DNA from: Pseudomonadota bacterium
GTDB lineage: Bacteria; Planctomycetota; UBA8108; UBA1146
Reading direction: 5' to 3'
Length of the DNA stretch: 37,909 bases
Assembly: GCA_017859655.1 (NCBI GenBank)
Contig: JAFMMO010000009.1
Location: 1-37,909, forward strand
Position 1 is the stretch's first letter; every line of letters begins with the position of its first letter. A model generated the notes under the pieces. The model was not told the origin of the DNA. It ran no database searches and saw nothing but the letters and a program-made list of their open reading frames with translations. Both the position numbers and the translations under genes were made by a program. This document shows positions 358 to 29,219 of this stretch, piece after piece.

Positions 358-1377
358 CTACTCCATGATCAGTCGGAGCCCCGTGCCGAGCAGGATCGAT
401 TGGTCGGCGAACAGGAACGATCCCTCCGATGGGAGGAGATTGACGGTCGTCCTCGTTTGCATCGTGGGCTGGACATCCGCCGTGCACCATACGCAGATCG
501 CGCCGGCCCCGGTCGCGGTGCCCAAGTTCGTGGTGTAACCCCCGGCGAGTGCGTTGAAACCGTAGAGGTCGAGTCCGTTGGCACCGCCGCTCCAGCCGCT
601 CGTCGAGCGGAGCACGGTCGCCTCTGCTCCTGGATGCCCGTCCCCGGCGAGAAAACTCTCGAGCTCGGCGAAGTCGGCTACGGTCGGGATTCGCCAACCG
701 GGAGGAGCGAGCTGACCGGACGCGATGGCTGCCTCGTTGTAGGCCGCTCCGAAGAAGTCGAAGGGAAGGGGTGAGTCGTACAGATCGTTGAGGTCCGAAG
801 TGTCCAGCCAACGGTAGAGCGGTACGTTTCCGACTCCTCCTTCGTTCCAGTTCCCACCCGGGACGAATTCGGCGATGGGCGTGCCGTCGTTGAACTTCGT
901 GGTCTTCAGGTTCTGGACGGTCCAAGTTTGTTGGCCGAGGACGATCGTCGTGTAGACATTCCCATCGGCGTCGACGACGGTCAAATCGGGCGAACAAGTC
1001 GAGACGTCGCAGGAGAGCGAGCCAGCCCCGGTCGGGTCGACTCCGCAGTCGGGGTAGGGTTGCGGCGGTGGGGATCCGCTCGAGAACAAGAACGCGAGGA
1101 GGGCGATCGAGTCCGCAATGTCGACCAGAGAGTCATCGTTCGAGTCGCACGCCGACTCACACGGCGCGATCTGGTTCGAGAACAGAAGGCCCAAGGTGTG
1201 GATCGCATCCCCGAGGTCGACGGTCTCATCGCCATTGCAGTCGCCCCGCGTGAAGTCCATCGCGTGTGCCGGGGGGACGAGGCTGCTCGGAAGAAGCGAG
1301 CCGAAGAGAAGCAACAGGCAGCCCGCCATGACGGGGCGGATCGCGAGATTCGCCGAAACCGTATTCTCTGAGCGCAT
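358..1377 (-). CDS. Secreted protein with dockerin-like repeats and a FISUMP domain
   Basis: Protein of 339 residues. Residues 1-39 form a signal peptide ending AHA. Residues about 44-100 hold two EF-hand-like loops of the dockerin type (GDCNGDETVDLGDAI and DSNDDSLVDIADSI), each followed by a hydrophobic LLF/FLF helix end, and then a Cys-containing linker. Residues about 133-338 match the Fibrobacter succinogenes major paralogous (FISUMP) domain: G-Q-x-W near 149-152, N-L-x-T, and the PPGWRIPT motif. The function of FISUMP is unknown; it occurs in secreted or surface proteins. The start is the ATG at 1377, preceded by GGAAAGGAG; the frame stays open further upstream but without a better start. 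The protein is probably exported and calcium-binding. The VOC gene lies 59 bases upstream on the same strand. Placing the dockerin-like pair N-terminal to the partner domain is less usual than at the C terminus. Confidence 0.85.
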   Translation of the reverse strand: MRSENTVSANLAIRPVMAGCLLLLFGSLLPSSLVPPAHAMDFTRGDCNGDETVDLGDAIHTLGLLFSNQIAPCESACDSNDDSLVDIADSIALLAFLFSSGSPPPQPYPDCGVDPTGAGSLSCDVSTCSPDLTVVDADGNVYTTIVLGQQTWTVQNLKTTKFNDGTPIAEFVPGGNWNEGGVGNVPLYRWLDTSDLNDLYDSPLPFDFFGAAYNEAAIASGQLAPPGWRIPTVADFAELESFLAGDGHPGAEATVLRSTSGWSGGANGLDLYGFNALAGGYTTNLGTATGAGAICVWCTADVQPTMQTRTTVNLLPSEGSFLFADQSILLGTGLRLIME

Positions 1378-24281: not shown

Positions 24282-25063
24282 CAGGGGCAGAACGCGCCGG
24301 TGGGACACTGGAGAGTCGGGTCCGCCTCGCAGTCGGGGAACGCTCCGCCGGGGGAAGGCCCCGACCCGAAGAGCCACGCGAGGAGCGTGACCGGATCGCT
24401 CACATCTGCGAGCCCGTCCGCGTTCGCGTCCACCGCCGCCTCGCAGTTGAGACCGCCGCCCTCGAAGAGGAACGCGAGGCCCGCGATCGCGTCGGTCAGG
24501 TCGACGGCGCCGCTCTGGTCCACATCTCCCCGGATGAAGTCGAGCGGCGGAGTGACCGTCCACTCCCCGCAGCTCAGGTCCATCGGGACGGAGCTGCCGC
24601 CGATCACGACGACCGAGGTGATCGGCGGCGAGCCGATCGGGCAGGGGCAGAGGGTCGTCGTTCCCTCCGCGAGGGCCGTGTAGCTCGCCGCCACGATCTC
24701 GAAGCTCCCGGGCGGGAGAACCGCCATGCCGAGGAAGCTGATGATCACCCCCACCGAGAACCCGAACGACTCCTGGTTGAAGGAGGCGAAGTCGGGGGTC
24801 CCGCCGCCGTTCACGACGAGGGCGTCCGCGCCGTGCCCGAAGTCCACGAGCTCGATCACCGCGGGGTCGTGGCAGATGGTCAGGGACCAGCCGCTCGCAT
24901 CCTGAGGGTTGTCGAGGAGCGCGCTGGTGGAGATCCCCGCGCCGACCCCGGCGGAGCCGCCGAGGGTGGTGAGGAGGGGAGCCTGGGCGAGGAGAGAACC
25001 CCCTGCGCCCCACGAGAGGGGCAGGAGGAGCAGGAGCAGACGGGCGGACGGAGCGTTCGACAT
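24281..25063 (-). CDS. Secreted protein with cohesin-like and dockerin-like modules
   Basis: A 260-residue protein. The signal peptide covers about 1-27 (ends LLAQ). Residues about 32-172 form a beta-rich domain with the look of a cohesin-like/Ig-type module (LLDNPQDASGWSLTICHDP, VNGGGTPDF, VGVIISFLG). Residues 177-232 hold two dockerin-like loops (GDVDQSGAVDLTDAI and DANADGLADVSDPV) with LAFLF and LLAWLF helix ends, followed by a Cys-rich tail (C245, C253, C259). The role is unknown; a surface or extracellular, calcium-binding, non-enzymatic part is likely. GGGAGGAAG precedes the ATG at 25063. It is the third gene after sulfatase and EamA transporter, 41 bases past the latter. Confidence 0.82.
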   Translation of the reverse strand: MSNAPSARLLLLLLPLSWGAGGSLLAQAPLLTTLGGSAGVGAGISTSALLDNPQDASGWSLTICHDPAVIELVDFGHGADALVVNGGGTPDFASFNQESFGFSVGVIISFLGMAVLPPGSFEIVAASYTALAEGTTTLCPCPIGSPPITSVVVIGGSSVPMDLSCGEWTVTPPLDFIRGDVDQSGAVDLTDAIAGLAFLFEGGGLNCEAAVDANADGLADVSDPVTLLAWLFGSGPSPGGAFPDCEADPTLQCPTGAFCP

Positions 25064-25104: not shown

Positions 25105-26034
25105 CTACCGGGAACGGCCTCCGACGCCACCCCTCCTCGAGAGGGTCACGGCCAGAATGCCCGCGATGATCGCGCTCCCTCCGCCCCAGAACTCGTCCGG
25201 GGGCACCTCTCCGAGGAAGATCCAGACGAGGATCGAGGCGCCGACGACCTCGCCGAGGAACGCGGTTGAGACGACCGTGGCGGGGAAGTGACGGAGCGCC
25301 GCGTTCATCGGGGTGTGACCGAGCACGGTCGGAAAGAGGGCGAGGAGCAGGGCCACCCGCCACTCGACGCCGCTCTCCGGGATCCAGTCCCCCCCGTCCG
25401 CCCCGACGACGATCGCGAGGAGCAGGGCCGCGATGGCGTAGCTCCGCCGGGCGTAGAGCGCCCCCCCCAGCCGCGGCCCGGCCCGGCGACCGGCGAGCAG
25501 GTAGCCGACCATGCCGACCGCGCTGAGCACTCCGTAGGCGACCCCGATGATGTCTCCCCCTTCGCGCAGCCCTTCGCTCCGGGCGAGGTAGATCGCTCCC
25601 CCGAAGGCGACGAGCACCCCCCCGATCGCACGCGGGGTGGCGCGGATCGAGCCGCGGGCGCTCTCGATCAGCAGAAGGAGCACGGGATGCATGGAGACGA
25701 GGACGAGGGTGACCGCGACCGAGTCGAGGCGGGCGAGGGATGCGAAGTAGGCGCTGAAGTGCACCGCGAGGCAGGTGCCGCTGGCGAGGACCGCGACCCC
25801 CTCCGATCCCAGGGGCGGCGGGGGAGGCTCTCTCCGGACCAGCGCGGCGCGGACCCGGGAGAGGAGGATGAGGATCGGCACGGTGAGGGCGAGGCGGCGG
25901 AAGGCGAGCTCGACGCCGGAGGCCTCGGAGCCCCGAGCCCAGAGGCTCGCGGTCGAGATGCCGAGGATTCCCACCAGCAGGAGCAGCAGCGGTGCCCCTC
26001 CCGGACGGGGAGGCGCGCAGACATCACTCGCCAT
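25105..26034 (-). CDS. EamA-family (DMT superfamily) membrane transporter
   Basis: A 309-residue protein with about ten hydrophobic helices arranged as two EamA halves of five. Typical positions include G-I-S-T-A-S-L-W in helix 1, LARLDSVAVTLVLVSMHPVLLLL at the end of the first half, and TVVSTAFLGEVVGASILVWIFLGE near the end of the second half. Members export or import small metabolites; the substrate is unknown. The start is the ATG at 26034 (a GTG immediately before it is also possible), preceded by GGCGGAG. It overlaps the end of the sulfatase gene by about 11 bases, so the two are coupled. Confidence 0.88.
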   Translation of the reverse strand: MASDVCAPPRPGGAPLLLLLVGILGISTASLWARGSEASGVELAFRRLALTVPILILLSRVRAALVRREPPPPPLGSEGVAVLASGTCLAVHFSAYFASLARLDSVAVTLVLVSMHPVLLLLIESARGSIRATPRAIGGVLVAFGGAIYLARSEGLREGGDIIGVAYGVLSAVGMVGYLLAGRRAGPRLGGALYARRSYAIAALLLAIVVGADGGDWIPESGVEWRVALLLALFPTVLGHTPMNAALRHFPATVVSTAFLGEVVGASILVWIFLGEVPPDEFWGGGSAIIAGILAVTLSRRGGVGGRSR

Positions 26035-27568
26035 CACGCTCCGCCGGTGAGTGCAACGCGCGGGCGGAGACGAGCGGCCCCGGGATCGGCTCCCCCGACG
26101 CCTTGTCGATGCTGGTCAGGGCGCCGGCCTCACGGAGCCAGACCTCGAGTCGCTCCGCGAGGGCGAGGACGCGCTCCGGCCGGGCCGACGCGAGGTCTCG
26201 CAGCTCTCCCGGATCCTCCGCCAGATCGTAGAGCTCGAAGCGGGGACCCGCGTGGAAGTGGAGGAGCTTCTCACTCCCCAGCCGGATCGAGGTGAACGGC
26301 TCGATGCCGGGGCCCTTCGCCCCCCACTGATGCGGCTGGTGCCAGACGAGCGGGCGCGCCGGCCGCTCCCTCCCGGCGAGCACCGGACCGAGATCGACGC
26401 CATCGATGGTGTGCCCCTCCGGCGCCCGGACCCCCGCCGCGTTCAGCAGGGTGGGAAAGAGGTCGAAGGTGCTCCAGGGGTAGCTCGTGACCGCTCCGGG
26501 CCGGGTGACCCCGGGCCAGCGGATGATCCCGGGGACCCGGGTCCCCCCCTCGTAGGCGGAGCCCTTGCCGCTGCGCCACGGTGCGTTGTGCGTGTGGGGC
26601 GTGCCCCCTCGGGCATGAGCGGAGAGCCCGCCGTTGTCGGAGGTGAAGATCACGATCGTCGTCTCCGCGATGCCGAGGCGGTCGATCGCGTCGAGGATCG
26701 ACCCCACCGCATCATCCACCGACTCGATCATCGTCGCGTAGGCCGCCTCCCGGGGGTCGAGTCCCTCGTACTTCGCGAGCTTGTCCCGGTTCGCCTGAAT
26801 GGGCGTGTGCACCGCGTAGGGGTGGAAGTCGAGGAGCACCCGCTCGCCACGCCGCACCGCGACCTCGAAGGCGGCGACCGCCTCGATGGCGAGAGCCTCC
26901 GTGAGGTAGATGTCCTGCCCGTGGTACTTCTCGAGGCCCGGGACATCCCAGACCGAGGGCTCTCCCCCGAGCTTCCCCTGTCGGCCGCTCCGGGTGAAGC
27001 TCTCGAGGCCTCGGAAGCTCCCCGGAGCGCCGGAGGCGTGACCGGCGATGTTGATGTCGTAGCCCAGCGCCCGCGGATCCGCGCCGCTTGTCCCGTGCGC
27101 TCCGTAGTGCGCCTTGCCGGCGTGAATCGTCGTGTAGCCCGCTTTCTTCAGCAGCGCGGGGAGGACCACCTCCTCGGCGGTGAGTCCATCGGTCCGCCAG
27201 GCGGGAGGCGAGAGGGTGGGATGGCGGGCGGAGGTGTCCCGCCCGGCGTGGAGGGTCCAGTAGGTGATCCCATGCCGCGCGGGGGCCTGCCCGGTGAGGA
27301 GGCTCGCCCGGGTCGGCGTGCAGACCGGACCCGCCGCGTAGGCATCGGTGGCCCGCATCCCCTCTCGCGCGAGGCGCGCGATGTGCGGAGTCGGGGCGGG
27401 CCCCCGGAGCTCCTCCGCTCCCTCGACCGCGGGGAGGGAGACATCCGCCCCTCCGAGGTCATCGACGAGGATCACCACGATGTGAGGGGGCGGCTCCGGC
27501 GTCGGGGCCGGGCTGGAAGGGGACGGCAGGCAGAGCGCGAGGGCGAGCGCGGCGACGGGAGCGATCAT
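26024..27568 (-). CDS. Secreted sulfatase (arylsulfatase family)
   Basis: A 514-residue protein with a signal peptide (about 1-22). The active site is complete: metal ligands D36-D37 in VVILVDDLGGADV, and the sulfatase signature C83-T-P-T-R87-A-S-L-L-T-G, in which C83 becomes formylglycine. H-A-G-K-A-H-Y-G near 150, T-S-D-N-G-G near 310 and a later K-G-S-A-Y-E-G-G-T-R-V-P-G motif complete the family pattern. It hydrolyses sulfate esters, probably from polysaccharides, outside the cytoplasm; the substrate subfamily cannot be given. A formylglycine-generating enzyme is needed from elsewhere in the genome. GAGGAGGA precedes the ATG, and the EamA gene overlaps its end. Confidence 0.93.
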   Translation of the reverse strand: MIAPVAALALALCLPSPSSPAPTPEPPPHIVVILVDDLGGADVSLPAVEGAEELRGPAPTPHIARLAREGMRATDAYAAGPVCTPTRASLLTGQAPARHGITYWTLHAGRDTSARHPTLSPPAWRTDGLTAEEVVLPALLKKAGYTTIHAGKAHYGAHGTSGADPRALGYDINIAGHASGAPGSFRGLESFTRSGRQGKLGGEPSVWDVPGLEKYHGQDIYLTEALAIEAVAAFEVAVRRGERVLLDFHPYAVHTPIQANRDKLAKYEGLDPREAAYATMIESVDDAVGSILDAIDRLGIAETTIVIFTSDNGGLSAHARGGTPHTHNAPWRSGKGSAYEGGTRVPGIIRWPGVTRPGAVTSYPWSTFDLFPTLLNAAGVRAPEGHTIDGVDLGPVLAGRERPARPLVWHQPHQWGAKGPGIEPFTSIRLGSEKLLHFHAGPRFELYDLAEDPGELRDLASARPERVLALAERLEVWLREAGALTSIDKASGEPIPGPLVSARALHSPAERDGE

Positions 27569-27704: not shown

Positions 27705-29219
27705 TCAGCAGCCGAGCGGGTCGGGGGTCGGATCCGGTCCGGTGCTGCGATCGGACGGAGCCGGGAGCGGCGGATCCCCGGAGAAGAGGCGACCGAGGAT
27801 CGTGATCGCGTCCGCCACATTGAGCTGACCGTCGTCGTTGGCGTCCGCGGCGTCCTCGCAGTTCACCAGCTGACCCCCCGCGAAGAGGGTCTCGAGGAGC
27901 GCGATCGCATCGGAGATGTCCACCCCCTCGTCCCCGTTCGCATCGCCGCGCCGGAAGTAGGGGCGCAGAGTCGGGCGATCGAAGGGGGGCACACCCGCGG
28001 CGACACGCGGATCGGTGAGGACGGTGGCGAGGAAGTTCTCGAGGAGGTTCTGCTGGTTCGCGGTCAGACCCAGGGGATCGATCGCGGGGTTCGGGAAGTC
28101 TCCCCCGACATTGTAGAAGTCGATCACCTCGGCGAGGGTCGCCTTGCCCCCGTTGTGGAAGTAGGGGGCGCGCAGGGCGACGTTCCGCAGGCTCGGCACC
28201 TTGAAGCGGCCGTTGTCGACCGGCTGTCCGGTGATCGCGCCGCGCCCCAGGTCCTCCGGCGGCGGCCGCACTCCGATCCGCCGGAAGGTGTTGTCGGTCT
28301 GGAGGGGGCCGTTGTGGCAGGGGAAGCAGTTGGCCGCGAAGAGCTGGTTCCCGGCGTTCTGCTCCGGCGTCAGGGCGGTCGGTCCGAACTGCAGGAAGTC
28401 ATCGATGGGGGCATCGTTCGTGACGAGGGTCCGCTGGTAGGAGGCGAGCGCGAAGGCGATCCGGGCCGCGTTGATGTCGGGGGTGCCGAACGCCGCCTGG
28501 AAGAGCGCGGGATAGGTCGGGTTCGCCGCGAGCGCCACCGAGACATCGGCGGGGAGGTCGGTCGCGTGGAAGAGCGGGGTCGCGACCTGCAGCTTGCTCC
28601 GCACATCGTCCCAGGTGCGGCCAGGGTGGGACATCTCGACGGAGGAGAGGATCGGGACGAGCGCCTGGGACTCGAGGGCGCCCCCCACCGGGATGAGGAC
28701 CGCACCGGACTCGGGATCGATGAAGGTCCCGGTCGCGCGGCCATCCCAGAAGAGGAGCGGCGTGTAGGCCGAGTTGAGGATCGACTGGCTGCGACGGGAG
28801 GTGACCTGCCGATCCCAACCGTAGAGCGGATCGAGGAGCGGAGCGCCGCTGGCATCGAGGCGGGCGACTCCGAGGCTCCCGTGGACATCGTTCGCGTTCC
28901 CGAACACGAGATCCGGTCCCGGGTTCAGGGAGGTCGCACGAGGATCGGAGCCCCCGAAGTCGGGCATGTGGCAGGTCCCGCAGGCGACGGTGTCATCCGC
29001 GGAGAGCTGGGCGTCCCAGAAGAGGATCTTGCCGAGCACGCTCTTCTGCGCGGTCAGCGGATTCTCGGGCGGGACGGGCGGCGGCGGGAGGGGTCCTCCC
29101 GGCGGGGGAGGGGGCGGCGGGGGCGGAGGTCCCTGGGCACCGAGATCACTCGCGACGAGCGCGAGGAGGAGCGCGAGGAGGAGGCTCGGGATCCCTCGAG
29201 GGGAGATCGTGTGGATCAT
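27705..29219 (-). CDS. MauG/cytochrome c peroxidase family di-heme protein with C-terminal dockerin-like module
   Basis: A 504-residue exported protein. Signal peptide about 1-29, then a Pro-rich linker (30-52). The peroxidase domain has two heme c sites, C80-G-T-C-H84 and C298-F-P-C-H302, the conserved L-F-W-D-G-R (156-161) and the distal-pocket pair Q185 and E195. Residues 421-482 form two dockerin-like loops (GDANGDEGVDISDAI and DANDDGQLNVADAI), followed by a Pro/Asp-rich tail ending in Cys. It should reduce peroxide or oxidise a substrate in the periplasm or at the surface. The dockerin-like module suggests binding to a partner. The ATG at 29219 is preceded by a CGGAG site; a longer frame upstream runs through a 14-bp tandem repeat and is rejected. 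Confidence 0.9.
   Translation of the reverse strand: MIHTISPRGIPSLLLALLLALVASDLGAQGPPPPPPPPPPGGPLPPPPVPPENPLTAQKSVLGKILFWDAQLSADDTVACGTCHMPDFGGSDPRATSLNPGPDLVFGNANDVHGSLGVARLDASGAPLLDPLYGWDRQVTSRRSQSILNSAYTPLLFWDGRATGTFIDPESGAVLIPVGGALESQALVPILSSVEMSHPGRTWDDVRSKLQVATPLFHATDLPADVSVALAANPTYPALFQAAFGTPDINAARIAFALASYQRTLVTNDAPIDDFLQFGPTALTPEQNAGNQLFAANCFPCHNGPLQTDNTFRRIGVRPPPEDLGRGAITGQPVDNGRFKVPSLRNVALRAPYFHNGGKATLAEVIDFYNVGGDFPNPAIDPLGLTANQQNLLENFLATVLTDPRVAAGVPPFDRPTLRPYFRRGDANGDEGVDISDAIALLETLFAGGQLVNCEDAADANDDGQLNVADAITILGRLFSGDPPLPAPSDRSTGPDPTPDPLGC

Follow-up and report, generated by a model that had tools for sequence, protein, structure and literature searches.

A cellulosome scaffoldin carries many cohesins together with a cellulose-binding module, and the cellulosomes of Clostridia and Ruminococcus share the logic of adaptor and anchoring scaffoldins with the system described here. 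Other cohesin-dockerin systems have been proposed, namely the planctosome, a complex put forward in 2019 for peptide degradation in the Nemodlikiaceae (Phycisphaerae; PMC6461901), and a cellulosome-like system in Ca. Stygibacter (PMC8542988). Here we analyse a window of 37,909 nt, which is the whole stretch of DNA under study (positions 1 to 37,909, forward strand, of contig JAFMMO010000009.1 in assembly GCA_017859655.1, deposited as a Pseudomonadota bacterium and placed by GTDB in Bacteria; Planctomycetota; UBA8108; UBA1146), containing a gene, P0001, for a putatively exported di-heme enzyme that ends in a dockerin module, and a nearby gene, P0002, whose product joins a predicted cohesin to a dockerin. 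We consider it likely that the two belong to a class-wide, apparently non-cellulolytic cohesin-dockerin system for surface display, with a MauG/MbnH-like enzyme as cargo.

The proposed planctosome (PMC6461901) is likewise planctomycete and directed at something other than cellulose, with an anchor, a dockerin-cohesin adaptor, docked enzymes and TSP repeats. Its own features are an anchor of 2,210 aa that bears lamin-tail and P-domains, a hyaline-repeat adaptor and peptidase cargo, whereas the present genome has four lipoprotein anchors, 44 open reading frames (ORFs) of the cohesin-dockerin adaptor type and up to ~90 varied cargo proteins including heme enzymes. No lamin-tail/P-domain anchor appeared among the anchors scanned, and no lamin tail was seen in the eight (which gave He_PIG, Calx-beta, HYR and weak Ig/LapA matches), no genome-wide lamin-tail search having been made. 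The proposed Ca. Stygibacter system (PMC8542988) is also a cohesin-dockerin assembly outside the Firmicutes with C-terminal dockerins on enzymes, and is distinguished by a single scaffoldin of 3,755 aa, in which cohesins stand in tandem alongside carbohydrate-binding modules, and by its hydrolase and peptidase cargo. The cellulosomes of Clostridia and Ruminococcus resemble the present system in cohesin fold, dockerin profile match and symmetric dockerin repeats, and differ in that here no more than three cohesins per ORF are found among 45 ORFs and no glycoside hydrolase is found among the cargo families listed. The non-cellulosomal cohesin of Archaeoglobus fulgidus (2xdh; Z 16.2 to P0002) is another example of the fold outside cellulosomes; that case is archaeal, whereas here there are 81 cohesin modules in one bacterial genome. 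The building blocks are known, but the open-licence papers listed in our search do not describe them at this scale, nor lipoprotein anchors, modules spread over a whole class or redox cargo. None of the papers listed reports a di-heme enzyme that bears a dockerin, the one entry for both terms having matched the surname Maughan.

The initial annotation described P0001 as a periplasmic or surface cytochrome c peroxidase in which a Pro-rich linker precedes the enzyme and a dockerin-like module follows it, and this layout is borne out by Pfam, by the CxxCH motifs and by the translation. The Pfam matches are CCP_MauG (residues 58-277, E 3.5e-35), Cytochrom_C (289-400) and Dockerin_1 (425-472), and the PF03150 match and two CxxCH motifs are both present, as in members of the CCP_MauG superfamily. 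We aligned the window protein with 17 orthologues that are 52-67% identical (18 rows, profile A5); the Pro-rich stretch recurs in many of these rows. Against the PDB, A5 matches 1iqc (2.9e-45), 6e1c (1.2e-40), which we take to be MbnH, and also other di-heme peroxidases and MauG. Tyr369 (Y340 in A5) is invariant across the 18 rows and aligns with a tyrosine of 6e1c but with a methionine of 3hq9. The top NCBIfam model is MbnH, followed by MauG, with P0001 falling below the equivalog cut-offs of both (150.7 against 362.85 bits and 133.5 against 443.85 bits). A tyrosine ligates the six-coordinate heme in MauG and BthA, according to PMC6405878. P0001 resembles MbnH, MauG and BthA in its CCP_MauG family membership, its two CxxCH motifs and a tyrosine at the axial-ligand place by alignment, and differs from MbnH and MauG in its scores far under their equivalog cut-offs and in its dockerin. 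Given the profile matches, MbnH as the best NCBIfam model and the alignment of Tyr369, the enzyme is, as judged from sequence, better called MauG/MbnH-like than a classical cytochrome c peroxidase.

The Dockerin_1 match of P0001 scores 19.2 bits in hmmscan, where the cut-off is 22.9, and 23.5 bits in a genome scan. The sub-threshold hmmscan score is what would favour a view of P0001 as a soluble peroxidase of the periplasm whose tail is decaying and EF-hand-like only by chance, a reading we find barely credible: 25 of the 31 class matches to the enzyme run through the tail to residue 504, the tail belongs to a family of 140 modules, and the calcium-loop residues are invariant in the 18 aligned rows, whose loci were found by a dockerin query. 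The last 86 residues of P0001 match 142 places in the genome at E <= 1 (the best 150 of 155 candidates having been scored), these being P0001 itself, two others in the window and the remainder elsewhere in the 3.5-Mb genome. In the genome scan at least 53 places match Pfam Dockerin (PF00404) at E <= 1e-3, and profile A5 matches the solved dockerins 1daq (E 8.6e-6) and 2mte (9.1e-6). With 142 genome matches and an orthologue profile that hits solved dockerins, we take the dockerin of P0001 to be real and its match, on this comparative evidence, not to be due to chance.

The dockerin family, as read with a profile from the DNA around the matched places, comprises 140 modules in 136 ORFs, and its profile A1 matches PDB chain 2y3n_B at 8.5e-7. 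Module counts here and below are lower bounds, as the best 150 candidates per genome were scored for this genome and the class, and 22 and 17 in the phylum sample. The calcium-loop aspartate occupies column 16 in 139 of 139 modules and column 49 in 140 of 140, and Cys33 is present in 131 of 140; the loops of P0001 itself are DANGDEGVDISD and DANDDGQLNVAD. As expected of type I dockerins, the calcium loop is duplicated and a helix follows both loops in the P0002 model, and the likeness to solved dockerins is that of the sequence profile. Position by position, the residue profiles of the first repeat (columns 5-28) and the second (columns 38-61) are almost identical, a symmetry typical of dockerins able to bind in two orientations. 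The commonest pair in both repeats is I/L followed by A/S/G, which we take to be the canonical dockerin recognition dyad and treat as a hint of one shared specificity. The family continues past the Pfam model into a tail that mostly contains a cysteine and closes with a DPT-D-L-C-like motif. The initial placement of the P0001 module at residues 421-482 located it correctly but not in full, since it runs from F422 to the terminal C504 with this cysteine tail; its identity as a dockerin is supported by the family and the profile matches. A home-made signal-peptide rule is positive for 105 of the 136 dockerin ORFs and, among the other ORFs that are 250 aa or longer, for 91 of 778, a comparison in which most of the 778 are probably non-coding and many of the signal-less dockerin ORFs start at contig ends. 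One 388-aa ORF (G000:C48:2879-4042, minus strand, L060) is little more than a tandem run of five dockerin-like modules, which lack the usual cysteine, and these five give the five top Dockerin_1 scores of the genome.

For the product of P0002, in which a cohesin-like domain had been suggested initially, an AlphaFold model of residues 29-260 built with 28 relatives has a mean pLDDT of 90. Foldseek against the PDB gave a best E of 9.9e-10, and VIA-align a best Z of 17.2 (rmsd 1.9 over 133 residues, to 4uyp_A); with both programs the best 50 rows are cohesin or scaffoldin entries except 2o4e, titled only 'protein-protein interaction module', and the matches span the cohesin part of P0002 only. 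The N-terminal domain is thus a cohesin by predicted fold, and the same protein bears its own dockerin. P0002 is the sole cohesin modelled, the other cohesin modules being assigned via sequence. Neither Pfam nor NCBIfam has a match to P0002, and Pfam PF00963 finds three places in its genome, all below the cut-off (the best at 22.6 versus 24.1 bits), so an annotation relying on Pfam Cohesin would overlook the system. In contrast, a profile of 73 modules (A2) finds 81 cohesin modules genome-wide, which supplies candidate cohesin-type partners, on which the docking idea of the initial annotation depended. Searched against 177,635 PDB sequences, A2 has the cohesins of ScaB and Scaffoldin C as its best two matches (1.9e-5 and 7.5e-5); the two domains of the best hit, 3l8q, singly score just 0.42 and 3.

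Cohesins are borne by 44 of the 136 dockerin ORFs (one in 23, two in 14 and three in 7), and in 36 of the 44 the last cohesin ends 14-23 residues ahead of the dockerin. This short spacing, along with EF-hand-like loops and a conserved cysteine that would stabilise the C-terminus, is what one would expect if the module were a calcium-stabilised structural cap, with the cohesin and dockerin of one protein packed together and nothing docked. We judge such a cap very improbable, as 92 of the 136 dockerin ORFs, some of them cut by contig ends, show no cohesin and the lipoproteins described below have a cohesin without a dockerin, and as 14-23 residues are in our opinion too short for the usual interface to form in cis. 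Neighbouring cohesin-dockerin genes with one to three cohesins each are clustered on contigs C80, C87, C181 and C204 of this genome (G000), resembling scaffoldin gene clusters, and in relatives too several cohesin matches lie close together (e.g., G005:C49 and G006:C43). A 1424-aa ORF (G000:C269:15892-20163, minus strand, L217) has an N-terminal dockerin and a C-terminal cohesin with ~1,170 residues between them, a mirror-image adaptor.

Four lipoprotein ORFs of the genome (three signals by rule, one by eye) have a cohesin near the C-terminus and no dockerin. Three other dockerin-less cohesin ORFs are cut by contig ends, that on C47 at its 5' end and those on C77 and C214 at their 3' ends. The same lipobox rule, applied to the 136 dockerin ORFs without reading by eye, is positive in 2 of them. 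Two of the lipoprotein genes, C125_21344 and C125_22615, are consecutive with a cohesin-dockerin ORF, C125_31593, forming an anchor-anchor-adaptor locus. This order is kept in 10 of the 11 relatives fetched (L253-L262), which were chosen for matching an anchor (G003 matched too, outside the set); the remaining stretch, L263, holds the first gene only. In these relatives the first gene encodes 481-551 aa, the second 1001-1564 aa and the cohesin-dockerin ORF 459-506 aa. The lipobox rule is positive in all of the first genes and in 4 of 11 longer ones, own genome included, the other seven being read by eye. We read this locus as probable membrane anchors that hold cohesins on stalks of differing length, together with an adaptor. 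Anchor matches at E <= 1e-20 occur in 13 of the 16 genomes of the family of the window genome (none in G002, G010 and G016).

P0001, a sulfatase gene, an EamA-family transporter gene and P0002 are consecutive in the window and all on the minus strand; the intervals between them are 136, -14 and 41 nt, so that P0001 and the cohesin adaptor may be co-transcribed. A promoter and terminator scan gave no promoter and one terminator-like site versus 0.9 expected, so the operon structure is taken from the gaps. A wider comparison drew on 79 related loci, the best 80 of at least 514 matching stretches being a top-scoring sample retrieved by a dockerin query (A3); together they hold 47 cohesin-dockerin ORFs, and by hand count 62 of the 79 are titled Planctomycetota, Planctomycetes or Planctomycetia. 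The 17 orthologues of P0001 sit in 16 loci from 12 genome records. As these loci were found via the dockerin, its presence on the 17 orthologues is partly a matter of selection, and the class-wide search with the enzyme is the fairer test. In 10 of the 16 loci (L140, L144-L147, L150-L152, L161 and L204; ten records) the next gene downstream encodes a cohesin plus dockerin. In L139 and L141-L143 the upstream gene instead encodes a dockerin protein with FG-GAP-like repeats, recognised by eye, a homologue of which (E 9e-277 or below) lies beside the second peroxidase-dockerin gene of the window genome, on C208; L138 and L185 have neither neighbour. Of the adaptors encoded downstream, all eight that were inspected, in five loci, have a cysteine-aspartate repeat, TSP3-like in appearance, between cohesin and dockerin. 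Runs of the repeat, DCDxDGxxDxCxIAxG, in the adaptors L144:6419-8119, L150:9155-11107 and L204:6379-8364 perhaps form a calcium-stiffened rod; Pfam finds no match to the repeat in L144. Three of the related loci (L139, L140 and L171, QNYK01 records) are labelled Bacillota, and their proteins closely match those of the Planctomycetota class, so the label is probably wrong.

The two module families are distributed together. Dockerin modules are present in all 29 class genomes (at least 60-151 each), as are cohesins (12-131). In a sample of 246 genomes from the phylum, 16 of which belong to the class, the dockerin profile matches all 16 of these as well as 28 of the remaining 230 (at least 1-19 modules each), and the cohesin profile all 16 as well as 3 of the 230 (one each). 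The enzyme itself, at E <= 1e-40, is found in 18 of the 29 class genomes, these giving the 31 matches mentioned above.

Of the 230 genomes outside the class, 38 encode an orthologue of the enzyme, and among the matches listed none reaches residue 504; most stop at residues 418-433 though the reading frames continue. We fetched 20 of these orthologues (L264-L283), from which the dockerin is absent (best E 0.8) and which all end in another module, 127-144 aa following the enzyme in 19 and 73 aa in one; 15 were aligned (A9) and the other five judged alike by eye. This module closes with a QWFV-D...F motif and has no Pfam family in the five proteins scanned. It occurs in 3-58 copies in 8 of 18 genomes searched and in none of 6 class genomes and 4 others, the A9 profile having drawn on orthologues from 6 of the 8 genomes where it then matched. 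The A9 module may be another address or attachment domain of other planctomycete lineages. The enzyme thus has a C-terminal label that differs by lineage, and its pairing with another multi-copy module outside the class supports, at the level of sequence comparison, the view that the dockerin serves here as an address label.

The same finding also suits the main rival explanation, in which the module would be a tag at the C-terminus that directs sorting or attachment through some other receptor or export machine, the cohesins being incidental, as unrelated multi-copy modules on one enzyme are what address tags would produce. A tag of this kind would also be in keeping with the position of the module, which in 124 of the 136 ORFs stands at the very end with no more than 25 aa after it (at least three of these being cut by contig ends), with the genomes that have dockerin modules yet not this cohesin family, and with the anchors not being seen in other families of the class. 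However, more than 100 aa follow the module in 11 of the 136 ORFs and one ORF carries five in tandem, which is unlike a cleaved tag, and cohesins occur class-wide and within the same ORFs. We therefore regard the sorting tag as unlikely, although it is the alternative that we take most seriously, and continue to favour docking on cohesins.

The cargo of such a docking system would be sought among the 92 dockerin ORFs without a detected cohesin, some of which are cut by contig ends. Pfam was run on 87 of the 92 cargo parts, five being too short, with long parts after the dockerin scanned alone where present. No glycoside hydrolase is among the Pfam families listed for the 87 parts (the best 25 of 46 and the best 25 of 26 families). 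In the larger batch (A7), of 69 parts, three have CCP_MauG, two are di-haem oxidoreductases (DHOR) and one has an animal-type heme peroxidase domain (2e-150). Since CxxCH, counted as a bare pattern, occurs in just 7 of the 92 ORFs versus 0.7 expected by shuffling, redox enzymes appear to be a minority of the dockerin cargo. The extracellular redox complex suggested initially is thus supported in part, and the other option offered there, a cell-surface attachment device, agrees well with the lipoprotein-anchored cohesins. One ORF of the genome (G000:C53:21022-21852, plus strand) resembles a zf-HC2 anti-sigma factor by eye and its C-terminus weakly matches the dockerin profile, possibly a sensor tied to the system; zf-HC2 was matched by one member of cargo batch A8.

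The features on which this description draws, including the three dockerin genes of the window, are collected in Table 1.

Table 1. Features of the P0001 and P0002 genes, other genes of the window, and the lipoprotein anchors of the genome
Feature	Position in window	Strand	Basis
Peroxidase-dockerin gene P0001, 504 aa	27705..29219	-	Stop-free frame; Pfam CCP_MauG, Cytochrom_C and Dockerin_1
P0001 signal-peptide-like N-terminus without lipobox, residues 1-28	29136..29219	-	Translation, by eye
P0001 Pro-rich linker, residues 30-53	29061..29132	-	Translation
P0001 di-heme enzyme domain, residues 58-400	28020..29048	-	Pfam and PDB profile matches
P0001 first heme motif CGTCH, residue 80	28968..28982	-	C, C and H invariant in A5
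P0001 second heme motif CFPCH, residue 298	28314..28328	-	C, C and H invariant in A5
P0001 Tyr369, candidate axial ligand of the six-coordinate heme (MauG/MbnH type)	28113..28115	-	Alignment
P0001 dockerin-like module with Cys tail, residues 422-504	27708..27956	-	Pfam, family profile
Sulfatase gene between P0001 and P0002	26024..27568	-	Pfam Sulfatase 1e-43
EamA-family transporter gene	25105..26037	-	Pfam EamA 3.4e-15
Cohesin-dockerin adaptor gene P0002, 260 aa	24281..25063	-	Open frame; AlphaFold 2 model
P0002 cohesin module, residues 29-175	24539..24979	-	Foldseek and VIA-align against PDB; in 73-module family
P0002 dockerin module, residues 176-260	24284..24538	-	Family HMM, alignment A1
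Third dockerin gene	358..1377	-	Signal peptide, N-terminal dockerin (1006-1254), Fib_succ_major domain
Anchor C125_21344, 493 aa			
Anchor C125_22615, 2986 aa			29 He_PIG stretches; lipoprotein signal by eye
Anchor C133_7286, 776 aa			
Anchor C133_9697, 842 aa			Calx-beta repeats

From the directly observed modules, fold and family matches, architectures, co-distribution and gene linkage, we infer that the dockerins bind the cohesins, that the anchors sit on the outer membrane facing outward, and that this is where the enzyme acts. The exported MauG/MbnH-like enzyme would be held at the cell surface as follows. In the window genome and its family, lipoproteins whose stalks are built of Ig-like (He_PIG) or Calx-beta repeats would each present one terminal cohesin, and adaptors with one to three cohesins and a terminal dockerin, some with a TSP3-like rod, could extend or branch the assembly. 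Up to ~90 cargo proteins of the genome, with the dockerin nearly always C-terminal, would plug into free cohesins with calcium. The dockerin of P0001 would dock onto an adaptor cohesin or directly onto a lipoprotein stalk, and the docked enzyme might remove peroxide or carry out a MauG-like oxidation of a co-docked protein.

Several points weigh against this arrangement. By Pfam score the dockerin of P0001 is borderline, and the cohesins fall under the Pfam cut-off or, for P0002, do not match at all. Matches three to six of the cohesin profile A2 in the PDB are flagellar hook FlgE chains at ~0.005, which we take as noise. The AlphaFold model of P0001 with 18 close orthologues (pLDDT 44, pTM 0.35) is unusable and nothing was drawn from it, and the fold comparison covered the cohesin part of P0002 and no dockerin. 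The anchors are matched in 0 of 13 class genomes of other families at E <= 1e-20, and at E <= 1e-40 the enzyme is missing from 11 of the 29 class genomes. The 28 of 230 non-class genomes with similar dockerins nearly all lack this cohesin family. Finally, the sorting of the lipoproteins to the outer membrane is assumed.

More speculatively, the docked enzyme might oxidise or cross-link neighbouring surface proteins and so harden or mature a dockerin-assembled coat, with the dockerin belonging to a set of interchangeable address systems, each multi-copy, that replace one another on this enzyme; we give this extension a rather small chance of being right, and if it were true, the cells would possess a lattice of cohesins and dockerins that contains its own enzyme for post-translational modification. 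The presence of two address modules on the same enzyme offers a natural module-swap experiment on how secreted proteins are attached to the planctomycete envelope, and the genomes offer candidate anchors, adaptors and cargo as well as new cohesin-dockerin pairs for protein engineering. If the surface display reading is true, members of this class would each send roughly a hundred secreted proteins, or more, through docking, and cohesin-dockerin docking would be a general way to dress a Gram-negative-type surface rather than a cellulose speciality.

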